Assembly (NCBI GenBank): GCA_018269025.1
Contig: JAFDVN010000101.1
Coordinates: 1-37,672, forward strand
Direction of reading: 5' to 3'
Source: Acidobacteriota bacterium
GTDB taxonomy: Bacteria; Acidobacteriota; Holophagae; Holophagales; Holophagaceae
Length of the DNA stretch: 37,672 bases
In this document: positions 7,185-35,318 of the stretch, one piece after another
How the letters are laid out: each line of letters starts with the position of its first letter
Numbering within the stretch: position 1 is the stretch's first letter
Position numbers and translations under genes: made by a program
Notes under the pieces: model-generated
What the model saw: the letters and a program-made list of their open reading frames with translations, nothing else
What the model was told of the DNA's origin: nothing
The model's database searches: none

Positions 7185-8123
7185 TCACTTCACGGGTCGC
7201 TCCGCCGCATCCATGGCCTTCTGCTTCGCGGCGTCGCTGGGGCTGCCCCACACGACCCAGTGGGGTTTCTGCTTGAGCAGCTCCACCAGTTCGTGGAGGC
7301 TCTTCGTGAGTGCGTTCACGCGCTGGAGCGATTCGGCGAGTTGGGGTTGATCGGTGCGCACGGCCTCATCCAGCGCGGCACTGAGGCTATCCATGCGCTG
7401 GGTGAGGGAGGCGAGGTTCTTCACCGTCGTGTCCAGATCGCCGCTTCGGTTGTCGAGCAGCGTCCGCACCTGCTTGAGGCTCGCCTGGAGATCCGCCAAC
7501 GCGGGATCGAGCCCGGCGACAGTCTTGGAACCCTGGTCCGCGAGGCCCTTGTAGGCGCGCACGGTCGCATCGAGATCCTTCAACGCCTTCGCGACCGCCG
7601 GGTGATCCAGCACCACGCCCGCGCCCTTCGCCTTGAATTGCGCCCGCAGATCGTTCACGGACCCATCCAGGTCGCCGAGCAGCTTGTCCGCCTTCGCGAG
7701 CACGGTTCCCAGGCTGCTCCCCGGCTCACCGGGCAGGATCGCGCTCGCCGCGAGGATCTCGCCGCGCTGATCGGCAGGCGGCAAGACAAGTGCGAGGGCC
7801 GTGCCGCTCAGGCCCTGTCCGACCACGGCCGCCTTCGTGCCGTTCCACATCACGAGATCCTTCTGGATCGTCGCCTGGACGAGGAAGGTATAGGCAGTGC
7901 CCTCGCGGTTCAGCGTCACCCGCTCCACGCGCCCCACCTGGAAGCCTTGGAGCAGAATGGGCGTGCCCACCTCCACGCCCTGCAGGTCATCCAACCGGAT
8001 GCTCAAGGGCCGGGTGGATGAAGTGACAACGGGCGCACTCTTGTAGGCCAAGAGGCCCAGAAAGAGCGCGAGGGCCGCGAGGACGAACAGGCCAAGCCGT
8101 GCATCCTGGCGCTTGACGATCAT
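7185..8123 (-). CDS. MCE/MlaD-family periplasmic lipid-binding protein
   Basis: A 312-residue protein with one N-terminal membrane anchor (about 12-29, LGLFVLAALALFLGLLAY), an MCE domain (about 38-115, including GVEVGTPILLQGFQVGRV and a later GLSGTALALVL), and a long helical C-terminal region with probable coiled coil (about 140-280). MCE proteins form hexameric rings or tubes that carry phospholipids across the periplasm of diderms. The long helical tail is more like the PqiB/YebT or Mce-type extensions than the short E. coli MlaD. ATG 8123 follows GAGGAGG and overlaps the ATPase stop by 4 bases. It is the last gene of the mlaE-mlaF-mlaD order; the mlaB and mlaC partners are not present in this window. 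Confidence 0.92.
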   Translation of the reverse strand: MIVKRQDARLGLFVLAALALFLGLLAYKSAPVVTSSTRPLSIRLDDLQGVEVGTPILLQGFQVGRVERVTLNREGTAYTFLVQATIQKDLVMWNGTKAAVVGQGLSGTALALVLPPADQRGEILAASAILPGEPGSSLGTVLAKADKLLGDLDGSVNDLRAQFKAKGAGVVLDHPAVAKALKDLDATVRAYKGLADQGSKTVAGLDPALADLQASLKQVRTLLDNRSGDLDTTVKNLASLTQRMDSLSAALDEAVRTDQPQLAESLQRVNALTKSLHELVELLKQKPHWVVWGSPSDAAKQKAMDAAERPVK

Positions 8124-8788
8124 GGCCCCTCCTCGACTGGGTGGATTCTGCCAGCCTCCAGGCGAAATCGCCGCGCCCCGGGTAGAAGATCTGAATCCGC
8201 CTCCTCCGCGGAAAGCAGGAGGAGCCGGGTTGTGGATTCCGCCCAACGCTGGAGGGTGCCTCGCGCCAGATCCAGATCCGCGCCTTCCAGGTCCTCGAAG
8301 GGTTCCGAGAGGAAGATCACCTCCGGATCATGCGCTTCGATGCGGGCCAACTGGGCCAGCTTCCGAGCCCGGGCGCTGAGGGCGTGGGGACGGAGCCCGG
8401 CCGATTCCGAAAGGCCGAAGTGGTCCATCACGGCGTCCACCTCGGATTCCCGCCTTCCCGCGTAGCGAAGCGGAAGCGTGAGGTTTTCGCGAAGGGTTTG
8501 ATTGGAGAGCAGGCCGCCCTTGGCGAAGGCAAAACCGAGTCTCACCCGTCCTCGAAGCGCCGCCACGCCTTCGCCGGGCCAGAGGCGGATGCCATGGAGG
8601 CTCGCCTCGCCCGATTCGGGTTGAAGGAGGCCCGCGAGCACCTTCAACAAAGCCCGCTTGCCGGAACCGGCCGCACCCTCGATCCAAACCCGCGCCGCGG
8701 AAGGCACTTCCAGTGACGCGCCACGAAGGATGGCCCGCCCATCCGGCGCGGAAAGGACGAGGTCGCGGGCGAAGAGGCCTTCAGCCAT
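8120..8788 (-). CDS. MlaF-like ABC ATPase subunit with degenerate catalytic motifs
   Basis: A 222-residue ABC-type nucleotide-binding domain between the mlaE and mlaD homologues, so by position the MlaF subunit. The fold is recognisable but the motifs are eroded. Walker A is GAAGSGKR (38-45), with Arg where Ser/Thr should follow the Lys. The Q-loop Gln is replaced (FAFAKGG, Ala89). The LSGGQ-type signature reads LSARA (137-141). Walker B reads VIFLSEP, with Ser161 in place of the Asp though Glu162 remains. The switch His is replaced by Ser193 (LLLLSAEEAD). I checked the codons for Arg45 (CGG) and Ser161 (TCG) directly. Reading frame, length and overlaps (8 bases with mlaE, 4 with mlaD) are intact, so this is not an ordinary pseudogene. 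It may bind nucleotide without normal hydrolysis. Confidence 0.88.
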   Translation of the reverse strand: MAEGLFARDLVLSAPDGRAILRGASLEVPSAARVWIEGAAGSGKRALLKVLAGLLQPESGEASLHGIRLWPGEGVAALRGRVRLGFAFAKGGLLSNQTLRENLTLPLRYAGRRESEVDAVMDHFGLSESAGLRPHALSARARKLAQLARIEAHDPEVIFLSEPFEDLEGADLDLARGTLQRWAESTTRLLLLSAEEADSDLLPGARRFRLEAGRIHPVEEGP

Positions 8789-9566
8789 AGATCAGCGCCA
8801 CGAACAAGCCATCGGCGATGAAGACGCTCACGAGCGATGCCACCACCGCGTGGGTCACCGCCTGGGGGATCTCCGTCTGGCTGGCCTTCACCGAAAGGCC
8901 GAAGTAGAGGGACTGCGCGGCGATGAGCGCCCCGAACACGACCGCCTTCAAGGCGGTGAAGGCGAAGTCGCGGAGCTCCAACGCGTCCCGGACCTGCCCC
9001 CAGAAGACGCCCCAGGGTGTTCCCAACTTTCCGCTCGCCACCGCGAACCCCGCCAGAAGCGAGGCCACATCCAGGAAGATCATCAGCGCGAAGAGCGAAG
9101 CGACCACCCCGAGCAGACGCGGCGCGAGCAGGTAGGAACCCGGGTCCACCCCGTGAGCCTCCAACGCTTCCACCTCGTCTCCCAGGCGCATGGTGCCCAG
9201 CTCCGCGGCGATGGCCGTGCCACTTCGTCCGATGACCAGCACCGCGGCGAGCACGGGCCCCAACTCGCGAAGCACCACGGCGGAGAGCAGCGTTCCGGTG
9301 TATTGCCCGGGACCAAATCCCGCGAGCTGGGCGTAAGCCTGGAGCAGGGTCACCGCGCCGAGGATGGCTCCCGCGCCCGCGACGAGCCACACCGCCTGTT
9401 CGCCCGTGAACCGGAGCTGGGCCTTGAGCACCGGCAACACCACCCGCGCCCGCGCGCCGTCCAGCCTCAGGACGCCGCCCATGGCGCGCCCCAGCAGGTG
9501 CGCGAGATCACCGGCGTATTCCAGAAGGTGGCGCACGGCGGCGCCAAGGGCAGCGATCCAGGCCAT
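8781..9566 (-). CDS. MlaE-family ABC permease
   Basis: A 261-residue multi-helix inner-membrane permease. The MlaE signature is clear: LRELGPVLAAVLVIGRSGTA, then AAELGTMRLGDEVEALEAHG and VDPGSYLLAPRLLGV, followed by a helix and the C-terminal VTHAVVASLVSVFIADGLF. In Mla-type systems two copies of this subunit sit between the MCE ring and the ATPases and move phospholipids. ATG 9566 is chosen because the family N terminus starts here and AGGA lies upstream; the frame stays open 5' into the CAP gene. It overlaps the ATPase gene by 8 bases. The GTMRLGDEVEAL coupling-helix region looks normal although the ATPase it should contact is degenerate. Confidence 0.92.
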   Translation of the reverse strand: MAWIAALGAAVRHLLEYAGDLAHLLGRAMGGVLRLDGARARVVLPVLKAQLRFTGEQAVWLVAGAGAILGAVTLLQAYAQLAGFGPGQYTGTLLSAVVLRELGPVLAAVLVIGRSGTAIAAELGTMRLGDEVEALEAHGVDPGSYLLAPRLLGVVASLFALMIFLDVASLLAGFAVASGKLGTPWGVFWGQVRDALELRDFAFTALKAVVFGALIAAQSLYFGLSVKASQTEIPQAVTHAVVASLVSVFIADGLFVALIYG

Positions 9567-9607: not shown

Positions 9608-10801
9608 TCAGGGAATGGGATGGAGCGGACCTGCCACATCGAGGACCGCCAAGGCGCCGAAGCGACGATGGGTATCCCAGGCGGCTCCTGCCCGATTCGC
9701 CCCTGGATCGAAGAGAAGGCGAAGGGTGCGCCGACCATGGGACCCGTCCGCCACCAGCATTGCAAGCAAGGCGCGCCGGAGGTTGTGGGGGCCACCAAAA
9801 TCGCCGTAAGTAAGCGCCTCTCCGCAGGGCGAGTCCAGGCCACCATGACGCGCGAGACGCGTGGAGAGATCCATCACAGTGGAAGTCGCGTCGCCATCCG
9901 CCACCACCCGCTCTTCGGCGCTTGCCGCGAGATCCTCGGACCACGCGACCGGCTGCACGGGCTGGCGCGACTCCAACAGGGCAATGGCCTCGCGGACTGC
10001 CTTCGGGCCTTCCGCCGTTTGCATCGGGCGCTCGCCAGGAAAGACCAGCACGCCTCCAGGCTGAAACCAGGACAACCAAGTCCGCAACTCCGCCGCGCAC
10101 CCTTTTGGATCTAGGCGCGCGCGGTTCAATTCCTGAACGAGCTCCTTCGCGAAGGCTCCACGCTTCGTTGGCTCCGGTCGAGGTTCCACATCCCGCAGGA
10201 ATCCCGTGGCGAAATCCACCACGACCATGCGGGTGTAGATGGGATGCGGGCCCCAGGCCGCGCCTGCCAGAGTGTAGGTTCCATCGAAGATCACCTTCCG
10301 ATGGCCGCGATCAGCCACGCCGTCATCCACGATGAGGGCCAGCACCGCGCGGCGCGGGTCTCCCGGCTCCCCGAAGGTCCCATAGGTGGCCACTTCCCCG
10401 ACGCCCCCATCCACCGTGCCATAGCGCTTGATGCGGTCCCAGGGCAAGCTGCCGTCGCCGCCCTTGTGCCCAAGCCCGCCATCCCTCGCCTGATCCTCGG
10501 CCAGGTCCCTCGCCGCCTTGGCGAGCCTGTCAGACCATGCCACAGGCGGAAGAGGCTTCTGCTGTTCCAGGAAGGCGATGGCCTCCTTCACCGGGGCCGC
10601 GCCTTCTTGGGTGCGAAGGCGCGGCTCACCGGGAAAGGCGAGGTAGCGATTCCCCTCAAAGAGGGGCAACCAGCTCTTCAGAACCTCCGCCGCGGCCTTG
10701 GGCTGCTGGCGCGCCCAGTTGATCTCCGCCACCACCTGCTTGGCCTGCTGGGCCGTCAGGCAGGATGCGAGGAGGAAGGCGGAGACGAGGATGGGGCGCA
10801 T
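9608..10801 (-). CDS. tandem CAP/SCP-domain protein, putative lipoprotein
   Basis: A 397-residue exported protein made of two homologous halves (about 19-210 and 215-395). Both contain the same block: FPGEPRLRTQEGAAPVKEAI in half 1 and FPGERPMQTAEGPKAVREAI in half 2, followed by PVAWSD/PVAWSE. Half 1 keeps CAP-type residues (GLGHKGGDGS, GEVATYG, DRGHRKVIF). Half 2 keeps GEALTYG but lacks the first His and the DGS segment. The N terminus is a short signal with a possible lipobox, LASC (Cys14). It lies 41 bases before mlaE and 28 bases after cysK on the same strand, so it may be co-transcribed with either. The start codon sits in the loop of a 14-bp stem-loop. The function of bacterial CAP proteins is largely unknown. 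Confidence 0.8.
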   Translation of the reverse strand: MRPILVSAFLLASCLTAQQAKQVVAEINWARQQPKAAAEVLKSWLPLFEGNRYLAFPGEPRLRTQEGAAPVKEAIAFLEQQKPLPPVAWSDRLAKAARDLAEDQARDGGLGHKGGDGSLPWDRIKRYGTVDGGVGEVATYGTFGEPGDPRRAVLALIVDDGVADRGHRKVIFDGTYTLAGAAWGPHPIYTRMVVVDFATGFLRDVEPRPEPTKRGAFAKELVQELNRARLDPKGCAAELRTWLSWFQPGGVLVFPGERPMQTAEGPKAVREAIALLESRQPVQPVAWSEDLAASAEERVVADGDATSTVMDLSTRLARHGGLDSPCGEALTYGDFGGPHNLRRALLAMLVADGSHGRRTLRLLFDPGANRAGAAWDTHRRFGALAVLDVAGPLHPIP

Positions 10802-15059: not shown

Positions 15060-15171
15060 GGGTACCTCCAGGAAGTCTGAATGGAATAACTCAAACACCA
15101 TGCCACTCCTTTCATTGGATGCCGCAGGAAGCGCGAAGGTTGCCTTATCCTGGAGGCCTTGCGGAGTCCTC

Positions 15172-16536
15172 GTGTTCGGGCAGATCAAAGCCATCCACTT
15201 CGTCGGCATCGGCGGCATCGGCATGTCGGGCATCGCGGAGGTGCTGGCCAATCTCGGATTCCAGGTGAGCGGCTCGGATCAGAAGGCGAGCGCCACCACG
15301 GAGCGCCTGAAGAGCCTTGGCATTCGTATCGTCATCGGCCATGACGAGCGGAACATCGAAGGCGCCCAGGTGGTCGTCATCTCCAGCGCCGTGAAGGCGG
15401 ACAATCCCGAAGTGATCGCAGCCCACCAGGCCAAGATCCCCGTGATCCCCCGCGGCGAAATGCTCGCGGAGCTGATGCGCCTGAAGCAGGGCATCGCCAT
15501 GGCGGGCTCCCACGGCAAGACGACGACGACGAGCATGGTCGCCCAACTCCTCTTTCACGGCGGCCTGGACCCCACCATCGTCATCGGCGGGCGCCTCGGC
15601 ATCCTCGGCAGCAACGCGAAGCTGGGCAAGGGCGACTACCTCGTGGCCGAGGCGGATGAAAGCGATGGTAGCTTCCTCATGCTGAGCCCCACCCTCGCCG
15701 TCATCACCAACATTGACCGGGAGCACCTGGATCATTACAAGGATCTCGCGGAGATCCAGGACGCCTTCACCACCTTCGCCAACAAGATCCCCTTCTACGG
15801 CTGCGTCTTCCTGTGCAGCGACGACGCCCACGCCGCCGCGATCCTGCCGCGCCTCAAGCGCCCCGTCCGCACCTACGGCACGAGCCGGCAGGCGGAGCTG
15901 CGGGCCACGGACATCCAACAGGACGGCTTCCGCACCCACTTTTCCGTGACGGCCCACGGCGAGGATCTGGGTGCCTTTGAACTGGGCGTGCCCGGCCATC
16001 ACATGGTGCTGAACGCCCTCGCCGCCATCGGCGTGGCGCGGGAACTGGGCGTGGGCGTGGAGAGCATCCGAGAAAGCCTCAAGGACTTCACCGGTGCGGA
16101 ACGACGCTTCACGAAGAAGGGCGAGAAGGACGGCGTGCTCGTCGTGGACGACTACGGCCACCATCCCACGGAAATCGCCGCCACCCTCGCCGGGGCGCGC
16201 AAGGGTTTCCCGGACCGCCGCCTCGTCGTCGCCTTCCAGCCCCACCGCTACAGCCGCACCGAAGCGCTCATGGAGGAATTCGGCCGCGCCTTCTTCGAAG
16301 CGGACGCCGTGGTCGTGACGGAAATCTACGCCGCCGGAGAAGCTCCCATCGAAGGGGTGACGGGCGAAGCGCTGGTGGAGAGCCTTCGCTCCCACGGCCA
16401 GAAGGAAGTCCACTTCGTGCCGCGCGTCGAGGACCTGCCCGAAATCCTCAAGGACTTCACCCAGCCCGGCGATCTCCTCATCACCTTCGGTGCCGGGACC
16501 ATCACGAATGTCGGCCCGGCCTTTCTCAATCTTTGA
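15172..16536 (+). CDS. murC: UDP-N-acetylmuramate--L-alanine ligase
   Basis: A 454-residue peptidoglycan enzyme that adds L-alanine to UDP-MurNAc with ATP in the cytoplasm. The N-terminal Rossmann loop is [17 protein letters not shown] (9-25), the ATP loop is [12 protein letters not shown] (111-122), the central domain has [13 protein letters not shown] and [12 protein letters not shown], and the C-terminal domain has [15 protein letters not shown] and FQPHRYSRT. These are MurC-specific rather than MurD/E/F. I chose GTG 15172 (GGAG five bases upstream), which puts the Rossmann loop at the usual place. It is not in a division/cell-wall (dcw) cluster here. The stop codon lies inside the left arm of a CACGGAG repeat. 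Confidence 0.95.
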
Positions 16537-16610
16537 ACCACGGAGACGCGGAGGCACAGAGATGAAGACCAGAAGGCATTCCTCCGTGTCTCTGAGCCTC
16601 CGTGGTTCAA
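16533..16610. repeat. CACGGAG-type inverted repeat, copy 2 (murC-ubiX)
   Basis: Perfect 13-base outer arms TTGAACCACGGAG (16533-16545) and CTCCGTGGTTCAA (16598-16610) enclose inner units (GGAGGCACAGAG against CTCCGTGTCTCTGAG) that can also pair. The murC TGA (16534-16536) lies within the left arm, and the right arm ends 10 bases before the ubiX ATG. It probably folds as a long RNA hairpin between two same-strand genes. Confidence 0.8.
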
Positions 16611-16620
16611 TTCTTTGCCC

Positions 16621-17193
16621 ATGACCAAGCGCCTCACCCTTGCCCTCACCGGAGCCAGCGGCTCGGCCTTTGGTGTGGGGGTGCTGAGGCGCCTGGTGGC
16701 GCGGGAGGATGTGGCGGAGATCGCGCTGCTCATCTCGCCCACGGGTCGGCGTTGCCTCCATGACGAGACGGGGATGAAGGCGGAAGACCTCGTCGCGCTG
16801 AGCTCCAAAGTCTCGCTCAGAAACGAGCAGAACCTCGGCGCGGACATCTCCTCGGGTTCCTATCGCCAGGACGGCATGGCGATCGTCCCTTGCTCCGCCG
16901 GGGCGCTGGGGCGCATCGCCTCGGGGATCAGCGAAGGGCTCGTGAGCCGCGCGGCGGATGTGTGCCTCAAGGAGCGCCGCCCGCTGGTGCTCTGCCTTCG
17001 CGAGACACCCCTAAACCGCATCCACTTGGAAAACATGCTGCGAGTTCACGATGCGGGCGCCATCGTCATGCCCCTCATGCCGGGCTACTACACGAAGCCC
17101 GCGAGCCTCGCCGACCTCGTGGACACCTTCGCCACCCGGGTGTTGGACCAGCTTGGCCTGCCGGAAGACGATGCCCGGCGCTGGAAAGGCTGA
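16621..17193 (+). CDS. ubiX: UbiX-family flavin prenyltransferase
   Basis: A 190-residue protein of the UbiX/Pad1 family, which prenylates FMN to make the cofactor of UbiD-type decarboxylases. It shows LALTGASGSAFGVGVLRRL (flavin-binding start), the central PCSAGALGRIASGISEGL, VLCLRETPLNRIHLENMLRV, and the C-terminal MPLMPGYYTKPASLADLVD. All are standard UbiX motifs and the length fits. ATG 16621 is used; an in-frame TTG two codons earlier is possible. No clear ribosome binding site is present because the repeat lies just upstream. No ubiD gene is found in this window. Confidence 0.92.
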   Translation: MTKRLTLALTGASGSAFGVGVLRRLVAREDVAEIALLISPTGRRCLHDETGMKAEDLVALSSKVSLRNEQNLGADISSGSYRQDGMAIVPCSAGALGRIASGISEGLVSRAADVCLKERRPLVLCLRETPLNRIHLENMLRVHDAGAIVMPLMPGYYTKPASLADLVDTFATRVLDQLGLPEDDARRWKG

Positions 17194-32894: not shown

Positions 32895-33207
32895 GCGGGA
32901 TCGCCAGTCGCGCCATCTCGGCGTCCATGCGGCCGACGAGCATGAGGACCGCCATCTTGTGATCGCCGATCAGGGACAGCCAGGGATGCTTGAAAGTGGC
33001 GGGGCGGTTTTTCTCCACGAGGAAGTGGCCCGCCCAGGCGAAACCATAGGCGATCACGGGAACGGCCCAGATCCAGATCCAATGATGGGTGAGGATGAGG
33101 GTCGCCAGCAGGGCTAGGTAGAGGATCGTGCCCATCAGGTGCAACCGCCGATTGAGACGGCTGCGATGCTCGGCCACATAGGCGGGCCAAAAGCGACCGA
33201 AGGTCAC
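32884..33207 (-). CDS. DUF962/Mpo1-like small membrane protein
   Basis: A 107-residue protein. It has FWPAYVAEHRSRLNRRLHLMG, matching the YLxxH...NRxxHxxGT pattern of Mpo1/DUF962 proteins, then hydrophobic helices (about 27-60) and a conserved second part (GHFLVEKNRPATFKHPWLSL). Yeast Mpo1 is an Fe-dependent dioxygenase acting on fatty acids in phytosphingosine breakdown; the histidines needed for metal are present here. Bacterial members are mostly uncharacterised. The start is GTG 33207, overlapping the stop of the beta-propeller gene (GTGA). It is the last gene of the S55 operon. Confidence 0.87.
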   Translation of the reverse strand: MTFGRFWPAYVAEHRSRLNRRLHLMGTILYLALLATLILTHHWIWIWAVPVIAYGFAWAGHFLVEKNRPATFKHPWLSLIGDHKMAVLMLVGRMDAEMARLAIPPKP

Positions 33208-35318
33208 TTCTTCCCTCCCCCGATGGAAGCGGAAGCCGTCTGCTCATTCTCGCCTTCATCCGTCGCGCGCACGAGCACGCGCCCGCCCTTCACGAGGTCC
33301 GAGGGAAGCTGCACATCGAAGCTTTCCGTGGTCTGGTCGAAGACGCGGTCCTGGGGCGCAATCTCCACCCAATGATCGCCATCCGCGCTCACGGCGGCGG
33401 CCTTGATCACGGAGATGGCATCGGTGGCGGTGAACCGGACCCGCACGCCACCCGCCTCCGGCGCGGCGCTCAAGCCGCTGATGGAAGGCGGCGTGTGATC
33501 CAGCACGAAGGTGGGCGTGATCCAGGTGGAAGTCTCGGCGAGGTTGAAGGGGTTGCTCGGGGCGTCCGAGGCGGTCACTTCTAGCCGGTAGCGGCCATCC
33601 GGCACCGGCAGGGTGTCGAAGGCGAAGAAGCGTTCCGCCCAATGATTGGCCAAGGGGAGGGGCTGCCCATGGTCCGGGAGGAGGCGGATGTTGAACTCCA
33701 ATTGATCGTTGTTGGGATCCGACACCCGGAACATGAAACTCTGGGAGCCGCGGCGGAAAGTACGCCGCTCGGATCCCGCGTAGCCCATCGCCGGGATGAG
33801 CTTCTGGGTCTCCAGCGGTACGCGCTCGATGCCGATGTCATCGGGTGGCGCGCTGCGTGTGATGACGAGGCCCGGGGGCATGATGTCCACGCCTTCCCAT
33901 TGGGGCGGCAGGTTGCGATTGGCATAGCGAACGGTCACGCCACGGGCGATGGGCGTGGCTCCGCCCCGGGTGGAGGTGAGCCGCACACGGAACTGGGCGA
34001 AGCGCGAAGGCGGAAGCCCGGGCAGCTCTCCGCTCTTGAGGGGCGGTGTCCAGGCACTCCAGGTGGCATCCGGCTCCTCGGTGAAGCCCGTGCGGAATTG
34101 CAGGGTCAAATTCGTTCCTTCCGGCGCATCCGCTTCCAGCATCGCCCGGCCCCAGTCCGCCAGGGGCTGGGCGCGAAGCACCGGCGAATCCAGCGTGCCT
34201 TCCGTGGCTTGCACTTCGGAAAGCGCATGGACCTCGGCCGGATTGGAGGCCGCCACCAGGATCTCCGAGCCGGAAGGCAGGAAGGCCGTGGCCTGGCCCG
34301 CGCCGAGCTCGGTGAGAACCTCGAAGGGATCCATATCCCGCTGCTTCGGATCAAGGGGGATGGCGAAGATCCGGGAGCGGTTCCCGGTCCCGACGAGCAG
34401 GCGGCCTTTCCAGACCTCCAGCGCGTAGACCTGGCTCCGGGCGCTCTGCCACACCGTCTCCGGCACGCGGTCCTTGCCGATGCGAAGCACGGCGCATTTC
34501 GGCGCGCTTTGCGCGTCGCTCACGAGGTAGCCCTCCCGCTTCTCCAGCTTGCCGCTTTGGAGGTGACTCGCAAGGTCGTTGTTCGCGCCGATGTAGAGGT
34601 CGTTCCCACTGACCGCCAGGGCGCGGACCTCCTCGAAGGGCGTGTCCATGAGGATTTCGAGTCGGTCCGCGACGCGAGCGTAGTGGACCACGAGGCCGCG
34701 TCCTTGGGTGCCGAGGTAATAGCCGCCGGAGCCATCGGGGCACATCGCGGTGAAGGCGGTCTCCTCTTGGAGCCCAGCGAGGCGTCGGCTGCTCCCATCC
34801 CGGGCGAGGATCAGCGCCGCGCCGTTGGTGGATGCCCCCGCGCACACCACCTCAGAGCCCTCAACGCGCATCGCCCACACGACCGTGGCGTCCACCTCGC
34901 ACCAGGGCTTCACGGTGCCGTCCATGGAAACCCGGAACAGCTTGCCCTGGCCGCTGGGGGCGACGATGAGATCCGGGCCCACCTTCGCCATCGCGAAGAC
35001 GATGCCGCCCTTCACTTGGGCGAGGGGTCGTATCTGCCCATTGGCGTAGTGGTAGAGCTTGCCATCCGTGCCTGCCGATAAGTAGGCACCGCCCTGGCCA
35101 TCCGGCGTGGCGCACCAGATGACGCCTTCGGGAAGCTGCCCGACACGGCGCAAGGCCGGAGCGAGCCGCAGCGCGCCATCAGCGCCGATGCTGACCCCCT
35201 TGGTGGAAGCGCCAATCCAGTCATTGAAGCTGTCGAAGGAGGCCTTCGGTTGGCCCGCGATCAGCGCTGGGGCCAGCGCGAGCAGAACGGAAGAGGTCGT
35301 GAGGATTCGTGCGCGCAT
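33204..35318 (-). CDS. secreted beta-propeller protein with C-terminal Ig-like domain
   Basis: A 704-residue protein with a signal peptide (LTTSSVLLALAPALIAG, cleavage near residue 22). About residues 50-370 form repeated short strands of the beta-propeller kind, such as GVIWCATPDGQGGAYLSAGT, TAMCPDGSGGYYLGTQGRGL and VYALEVWKGRLLVGTGNRSR. Repeats are spaced roughly every 45-50 residues. About 400-480 looks like a laminin-type or fibronectin-like sandwich, and the last 200 residues include HTPPSISGLSAAPEAGGVRV, a bacterial Ig-like fold. No catalytic motif is seen. It starts 12 bases after the S55 peptidase stop and overlaps the DUF962 start, so it belongs to that operon. The exact family is not recognised. 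Confidence 0.8.
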   Translation of the reverse strand: MRARILTTSSVLLALAPALIAGQPKASFDSFNDWIGASTKGVSIGADGALRLAPALRRVGQLPEGVIWCATPDGQGGAYLSAGTDGKLYHYANGQIRPLAQVKGGIVFAMAKVGPDLIVAPSGQGKLFRVSMDGTVKPWCEVDATVVWAMRVEGSEVVCAGASTNGAALILARDGSSRRLAGLQEETAFTAMCPDGSGGYYLGTQGRGLVVHYARVADRLEILMDTPFEEVRALAVSGNDLYIGANNDLASHLQSGKLEKREGYLVSDAQSAPKCAVLRIGKDRVPETVWQSARSQVYALEVWKGRLLVGTGNRSRIFAIPLDPKQRDMDPFEVLTELGAGQATAFLPSGSEILVAASNPAEVHALSEVQATEGTLDSPVLRAQPLADWGRAMLEADAPEGTNLTLQFRTGFTEEPDATWSAWTPPLKSGELPGLPPSRFAQFRVRLTSTRGGATPIARGVTVRYANRNLPPQWEGVDIMPPGLVITRSAPPDDIGIERVPLETQKLIPAMGYAGSERRTFRRGSQSFMFRVSDPNNDQLEFNIRLLPDHGQPLPLANHWAERFFAFDTLPVPDGRYRLEVTASDAPSNPFNLAETSTWITPTFVLDHTPPSISGLSAAPEAGGVRVRFTATDAISVIKAAAVSADGDHWVEIAPQDRVFDQTTESFDVQLPSDLVKGGRVLVRATDEGENEQTASASIGGGKK

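Follow-up and report, generated by a model that had tools for sequence, protein, structure and literature searches.

The window, a stretch of 37,672 nucleotides from a Holophagaceae genome, carries on its reverse strand a three-gene operon of the Mla type, in which an ABC ATPase-like gene, here called F2, lies between mlaE and mlaD, the position expected of a member of the MlaF family. The frame of F2 is intact and it overlaps mlaE by 8 nt and mlaD by 4 nt, as a preliminary description had reported with exact coordinates and strand. The genes and their relevant features are listed below; clade counts refer to 77 F proteins linked to the E2 clade of MlaE (90% non-redundancy) and to 53 non-redundant canonical F proteins.

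8781..9566 (-): mlaE2, 261-aa MlaE permease belonging to the E2 clade (PF02405, 198 bits; clade with 100 SH-aLRT)
9150..9200 (-): coupling-helix region of MlaE2, residues 123-139, LGTMRLGDEVEALEAHG, with the canonical TEQIDA motif relaxed
8120..8788 (-): F2, putative ABC pseudo-ATPase at the MlaF position, 222 aa (PF00005, 54 bits)
8654..8677 (-): Walker A of F2, GAAGSGKR, residues 38-45, Lys44 retained, Arg45 for Ser/Thr
8522..8524 (-): Q-loop position, FAFAK, Ala89 for Gln (Gln in 17/77 of the clade vs 53/53 canonical)
8465..8518 (-): docking loop, kept, GGLLSNQTLRENLTLPLR, residues 91-108, which include the diagnostic Asn96 (motif alignment)
8366..8380 (-): signature position, LSARA, residues 137-141, not LSGGM/Q (intact LSGG in 0/77)
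8342..8344 (-): Arg149, equivalent of MlaF R157 (Arg in 77/77 of the clade and 53/53 canonical)
8300..8320 (-): Walker B, VIFLSEP, residues 157-163, with Ser161 in place of Asp, Glu162 retained
8204..8206 (-): switch-His position, Glu195 in the stretch LSAEEA (His in 2/74 of the clade vs 53/53 canonical)
7185..8123 (-): mlaD2, 312 aa, single MCE domain, C-terminal part helical (PF02470, 43.5 bits)

Both F2 and MlaE2 exceed the Pfam cut-offs (25 bits for ABC_tran, 22.5 bits for PF02405), the permease with a full-length match, and MlaE2 falls below the cut-off of the NCBIfam model TIGR00056 (154 vs 212). A reverse-strand gene for a secreted CAP/SCP-domain protein (PF00188) immediately precedes mlaE2 (9608-10801, 41-bp gap) and, as it occupies the same place in Geothrix, may be co-transcribed with the operon. 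Elsewhere in the window, two reverse-strand ORFs have no Pfam match at all (33204-35318, 704 aa; 15145-16761, 538 aa).

The substitutions that had been described for Walker A, the Q-loop, the signature and Walker B can be read directly in the protein: K44 is followed by R45, FAFAK contains A89, the glycines of LSGG are absent from LSARA, and VIFLSEP has S161. The switch His is also lost, but not to Ser as had been proposed, since the family alignment puts Glu195 in the His column. Compared with the features that define the MlaF family, F2 departs from the Walker A consensus GxxGxGK[ST] (which most of its Geothrix orthologues carry), lacks one member of the Walker B Asp and catalytic Glu pair (S161, E162), and has none of the Q-loop Gln, LSGG and switch His (A89, LSARA, E195). 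F2 also ends without the C-terminal handshake extension (about 25 aa), at 222 aa vs 270 aa in F1, the canonical protein of the same genome. Such residues are essential in related motors: K47A and E170Q abolish the function of MlaF (PMC7367683), and D188N/E189Q that of MceG (PMC9947336). The losses are not due to chance, as canonical MlaFs scored in the same way keep the Gln and the His in 53/53 cases, the Walker B Glu being present in 52/53. In the most degenerate F proteins, the motif columns hinge on the alignment.

A genome search recovered the same operon in the window's own genus, in Geothrix (represented by seven species in the first set) and in several further genera of Holophagaceae; it was not found in four other genera of the family. 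The operon has the same neighbours in Geothrix as in the window: cysK, the gene of the secreted CAP-domain protein, YCII and carbamate kinase. Not one of the 18 Holophagaceae F2 proteins compared has the Q-loop Gln, the LSGG pair or the switch His, and 24 of 24 F1-type proteins are canonical. Apart from rare exceptions, the window's genus and Geothrix retain the Walker A Lys, which the other Holophagaceae genera have lost. Because the Geothrix F2 proteins mostly retain GxSGSGKS and the Walker B Asp, R45 and S161 are additional losses of the window's lineage. The refuting condition given in the preliminary description, canonical motifs in relatives at this locus as a sign of recent decay, is mostly not borne out: the losses of the Q-loop, signature and His are common property, and the other two are confined to one lineage.

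The F2 ORF is intact in every orthologue examined. For unsaturated Geothrix pairs, dN/dS (Nei-Gojobori) ranges from 0.13 to 0.38 for F2, from 0 to 0.11 for F1 and from 0.04 to 0.27 for E2; F2 is under purifying selection, yet its constraint is weaker than that of a true motor. The long branch of the window copy and its two extra losses (R45, S161) could suggest a recently decayed pseudogene, or a sequencing or assembly error in a single genome. Such an origin is extremely improbable, as recent decay, a frameshift or an assembly error is ruled out by the same losses recurring across orthologues, the conserved synteny, the intact ORF and the low dN/dS.

A scan with the MlaE2 alignment was run on one genome per species. 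Retrieval was confined to MlaE proteins carrying two peptide patterns and to the 80 best loci, so that the extent of the clade and its canonical members are possibly under-sampled. Acidobacteriota, mostly Geothrix and other Holophagaceae, account for 45 of these 80. The other phyla are Gemmatimonadota, Spirochaetota, Elusimicrobiota, Lentisphaerota, Kiritimatiellota, Verrucomicrobiota, Zixibacteriota and Latescibacterota, together with loci labelled 'Deltaproteobacteria', four of which are listed as Myxococcota (uncertain), one of these (L146) falling with Holophagae. In a 90-row MlaE tree, a branch with 100 SH-aLRT sets the E2 loci apart from the rest. As the retrieval patterns bias MlaE residues 106-119 and 226-238, these columns were removed in a control tree, where the E2 branch still received 100 SH-aLRT. 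Two E2-F2 loci, L154 (from a MAG labelled Verrucomicrobiales) and L146, nest inside Holophagaceae, by transfer, mislabelling or binning error.

Besides the low counts for LSGG, His and Gln listed above, only 16 of the 77 E2-linked F proteins keep the catalytic Glu, and 53 have lost all four, each of which is kept in 51-53 of the 53 canonical MlaFs. All seven core residues occur together in none of the 77, against 50 of 53 canonical proteins. The same distant genomes also contributed F proteins to the canonical set (L216-L243), and every sampled F adjoining a canonical-clade MlaE is canonical or nearly so. Judged from these sequences, the loss of ATP-hydrolysis residues appears to be an old trait of the whole E2 branch, spanning about ten phyla, and not the oddity of one protein that had been described at the outset.

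The F proteins of the clade form a graded series, from near-canonical forms (spirochaete, elusimicrobial and two 'deltaproteobacterial') to degenerate ones. The latter occur in at least three subclades with good support: one of Holophagae and allies, one of Gemmatimonadota, Zixibacteriota and Latescibacterota, and one of Lentisphaerota and Kiritimatiellota. Without a fixed root for the E2 clade, any count of independent losses is tentative. Nine F proteins (L148, L151, L156, L159, L162, L167 and L170-L172) retain at least two of the Gln, Glu and His, and may still hydrolyse ATP. Near-canonical E2 operons also have a putative TPR lipoprotein gene after mlaD (L148:6398-7327, L170:6478-7434, L162:6577-7500), and none was seen in Holophagaceae. 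Two E2-clade MlaE genes of Spirochaetota (L168:2767-3561, L184:3863-4672) have no adjoining F and no evident MCE gene; these possibly represent an end state of motor loss, or their F is encoded elsewhere.

The fold is predicted to be kept. The AF2 model of the window F2 (pLDDT 94.9, pTM 0.90) is an ABC NBD fold according to Foldseek, with a TM of 0.81 to MlaF 6xbd, and even a Gemmatimonadota F protein without a P-loop is predicted to adopt this fold (pLDDT 90.3, pTM 0.88, TM 0.86 to 6xbd). In MlaF, the coupling helix of MlaE is touched by R52, L96, Y108, E112 and R157 (PMC7784689). Among the 77 E2-linked proteins, the equivalent of R52 is K/R in 64, that of L96 (L93 in F2) is L in 72, and that of R157 is invariably R; the Y108 equivalent is L in 71 and the E112 equivalent aromatic in 73. 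In the window F2, R149, L93 and K49 are the conserved residues of this set, with the Y108 and E112 positions altered. Three residues past L93, Asn96 is present in 77/77 E2-linked proteins and 0/53 canonical ones.

On the permease side, no segment of canonical MlaE is more conserved than the coupling helix (E. coli residues 120-136), with a mean pairwise identity of 0.71 that drops to 0.46 in E2, where TM1, TM2 and TM3 are about as conserved as in canonical MlaE, or more. Within the helix, E127 is replaced by G in 39/59 E2 proteins and Q128 by E in 55/59; the E(E/Q)xDA coupling motif is partly kept, reading DEVEA in the window.

A canonical MlaF is encoded in the same genome. This source genome, a MAG of 2.3 Mb that is 76% complete, has just two matches each for MlaE and MCE, and its second operon (contig C200 of G000, locus L003) is a fully canonical MlaE-F-D with the F1 motifs GGSGTGKS, FQD, LSGGM, DEP and THD. 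Across the complete or near-complete Holophagaceae genomes searched, F1, operonic with E1, is the sole canonical MlaF (about 400-420 bits, the next ABC protein reaching at most 131 bits). A few genomes (G022, G029, G056; loci L082, L083, L084) have an additional MlaE-F-D system with a canonical F. MlaD1 (L003:6685-8148, 487 aa) has a C-terminal part that resembles, by eye, an outer-membrane beta-barrel of the Veillonella type; MlaD2 lacks such a part. MlaC (PF05494) was absent from the eight Holophagaceae genomes searched.

The main rival to a non-hydrolysing system, unlikely but serious, is that F1 drives E2-D2 in trans, F2 being an assembly factor, a placeholder or half of a mixed pair. The intact, single-copy F1 of each complete genome, the partial retention of the coupling motif in E2, and the established precedent of one MceG serving several mycobacterial Mce systems (PMC9947336, PMC10517005) are all consistent with this. 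Nevertheless, a helix shared with F1 would be expected to stay canonical, while this segment is relaxed in E2, with E127 and Q128 substituted. The co-occurrence of E2 with E1/F1 was discarded as evidence of sharing, since E1 is near-universal in these genomes and its presence is therefore uninformative. A TAP-like F1:F2 heterodimer with one good site is likewise disfavoured, because the losses in F2 affect Walker B/His as well as the signature, leaving neither composite site consensus. F2 could also bar F1 from the permease by filling its NBD sites, a role resembling that of Mce1N, which shows that NBD displacement is a real mode of control (PMC10517005). The F2 gene overlaps its own mlaE and mlaD, and the clade-specific docking residues go with E2 and not with E1, which makes such negative regulation very unlikely.

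Another alternative starts from what F2 still has in Geothrix: its P-loop and Asp could bind Mg-ATP, either for slow hydrolysis, with the Glu at the switch-His position or an Asp/Glu after Walker B as a helper residue, or as an ATP-bound gate. The Walker A K and S/T and the Walker B Asp survive jointly in 42/77 E2-linked proteins, so that nucleotide binding is likely in this part of the clade, and Glu stands at the His position in 40/74. Set against this, no member of the 77 has an intact LSGG, other lineages that carry this operon (Holophagaceae sister lineages, Gemmatimonadota and Lentisphaerota) have lost the P-loop, and the window copy lacks both the Walker A Ser/Thr and the Walker B Asp. 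Nucleotide binding would thus hardly be a property of the whole clade, and non-canonical hydrolysis or switching is a quite improbable explanation of it.

The preliminary description had left three options, a system powered otherwise, a passive one, or one recruiting an ATPase from elsewhere. This set stands, and the relaxed coupling helix together with the retained docking surface of F2 favours a non-hydrolysing F2 seated on E2. With some reserve, we consider it on balance probable that F2 is a pseudo-ATPase on its own permease and that E2-F2-D2 is a lipid conduit working without hydrolysis by its own NBD; the canonical MlaF of every complete Holophagaceae genome, which could act in trans, remains the counterpoint. 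F2 would dock, as an NBD-fold subunit, on the coupling helix of E2, be unable to complete an ATP-hydrolysis cycle, and stabilise, hold or gate the permease dimer. The complex, with Mla architecture and a putative E2:F2:D2 stoichiometry of 2:2:6, would be an MCE lipid conduit through which lipid could pass without such hydrolysis, for example down a lipid gradient via E2 and the MCE ring. Given that the motif loss is inherited clade-wide, the E2 branch as a whole probably transports lipids with no ATP hydrolysed by its own motor. That an ABC motor turned here into a non-catalytic structural or gating subunit, with a depth of loss varying by lineage after relaxation of the coupling helix, has a little less than an even chance.

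The direction of MCE lipid transport (export or import) and its need for ATP are still debated. In the E2 lineage, the permease and the MCE ring are under selection and the motor is apparently dead, which separates the conduit from its motor; if the preferred reading is true, ABC-architecture lipid conduits can work without hydrolysis by their own NBD. The graded F series, from near-canonical to P-loop-free and including cultured Geothrix, offers a test of NBD roles beyond ATP burning. Annotation pipelines label the F proteins of this clade 'ABC ATPases', which they probably are not.

The open-access literature, to which the search was confined, yielded no description of a degenerate or pseudo-ATPase MlaF, or of MlaE in Geothrix or Gemmatimonadota. 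By position, fold and docking residues, F2 is homologous to the MlaF of MlaFEDB (E. coli, Acinetobacter, Pseudomonas), with which it shares the MlaE/MlaD operon partners, the NBD fold and the residues facing the coupling helix. By its catalytic features it is not an MlaF-type ATPase: the Q-loop, signature, Walker B and switch residues are lost, whereas MlaF needs K47 and E170. Unlike MlaFEDB, the window system also has an F without the handshake extension, and no MlaB or MlaC was seen. Degenerate ATP sites are tolerated in TAP, TM287/288, PatAB and CFTR, but these retain one consensus composite site, whereas both halves have lost residues here, leaving no consensus site in F2:F2 or F1:F2. PqiABC and LetAB (YebST) are likewise MCE systems with no working ABC ATPase, but they rely on the PqiA/LetA membrane proteins and not on MlaE with an NBD-fold subunit. 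The mycobacterial Mce1-4 operons also lack a functional ATPase of their own; they have no NBD gene and share MceG, whereas E2 operons keep their own degenerate NBD. The minimal MlaEFD of Veillonella parvula and other diderms (PMC10665443) is, like the window system, a three-gene E-F-D operon without MlaA/B/C, but its MlaE and MlaF are close to those of model diderms and its MlaD has an outer-membrane beta-barrel, whereas the window has a degenerate F and a D2 of 312 aa; the likely Veillonella-type equivalent in the source genome is its canonical operon (D1, 487 aa). The nearest known kinds are the minimal MlaEFD (PMC10665443), the shared MceG and the ATPase-free Pqi/Let systems.
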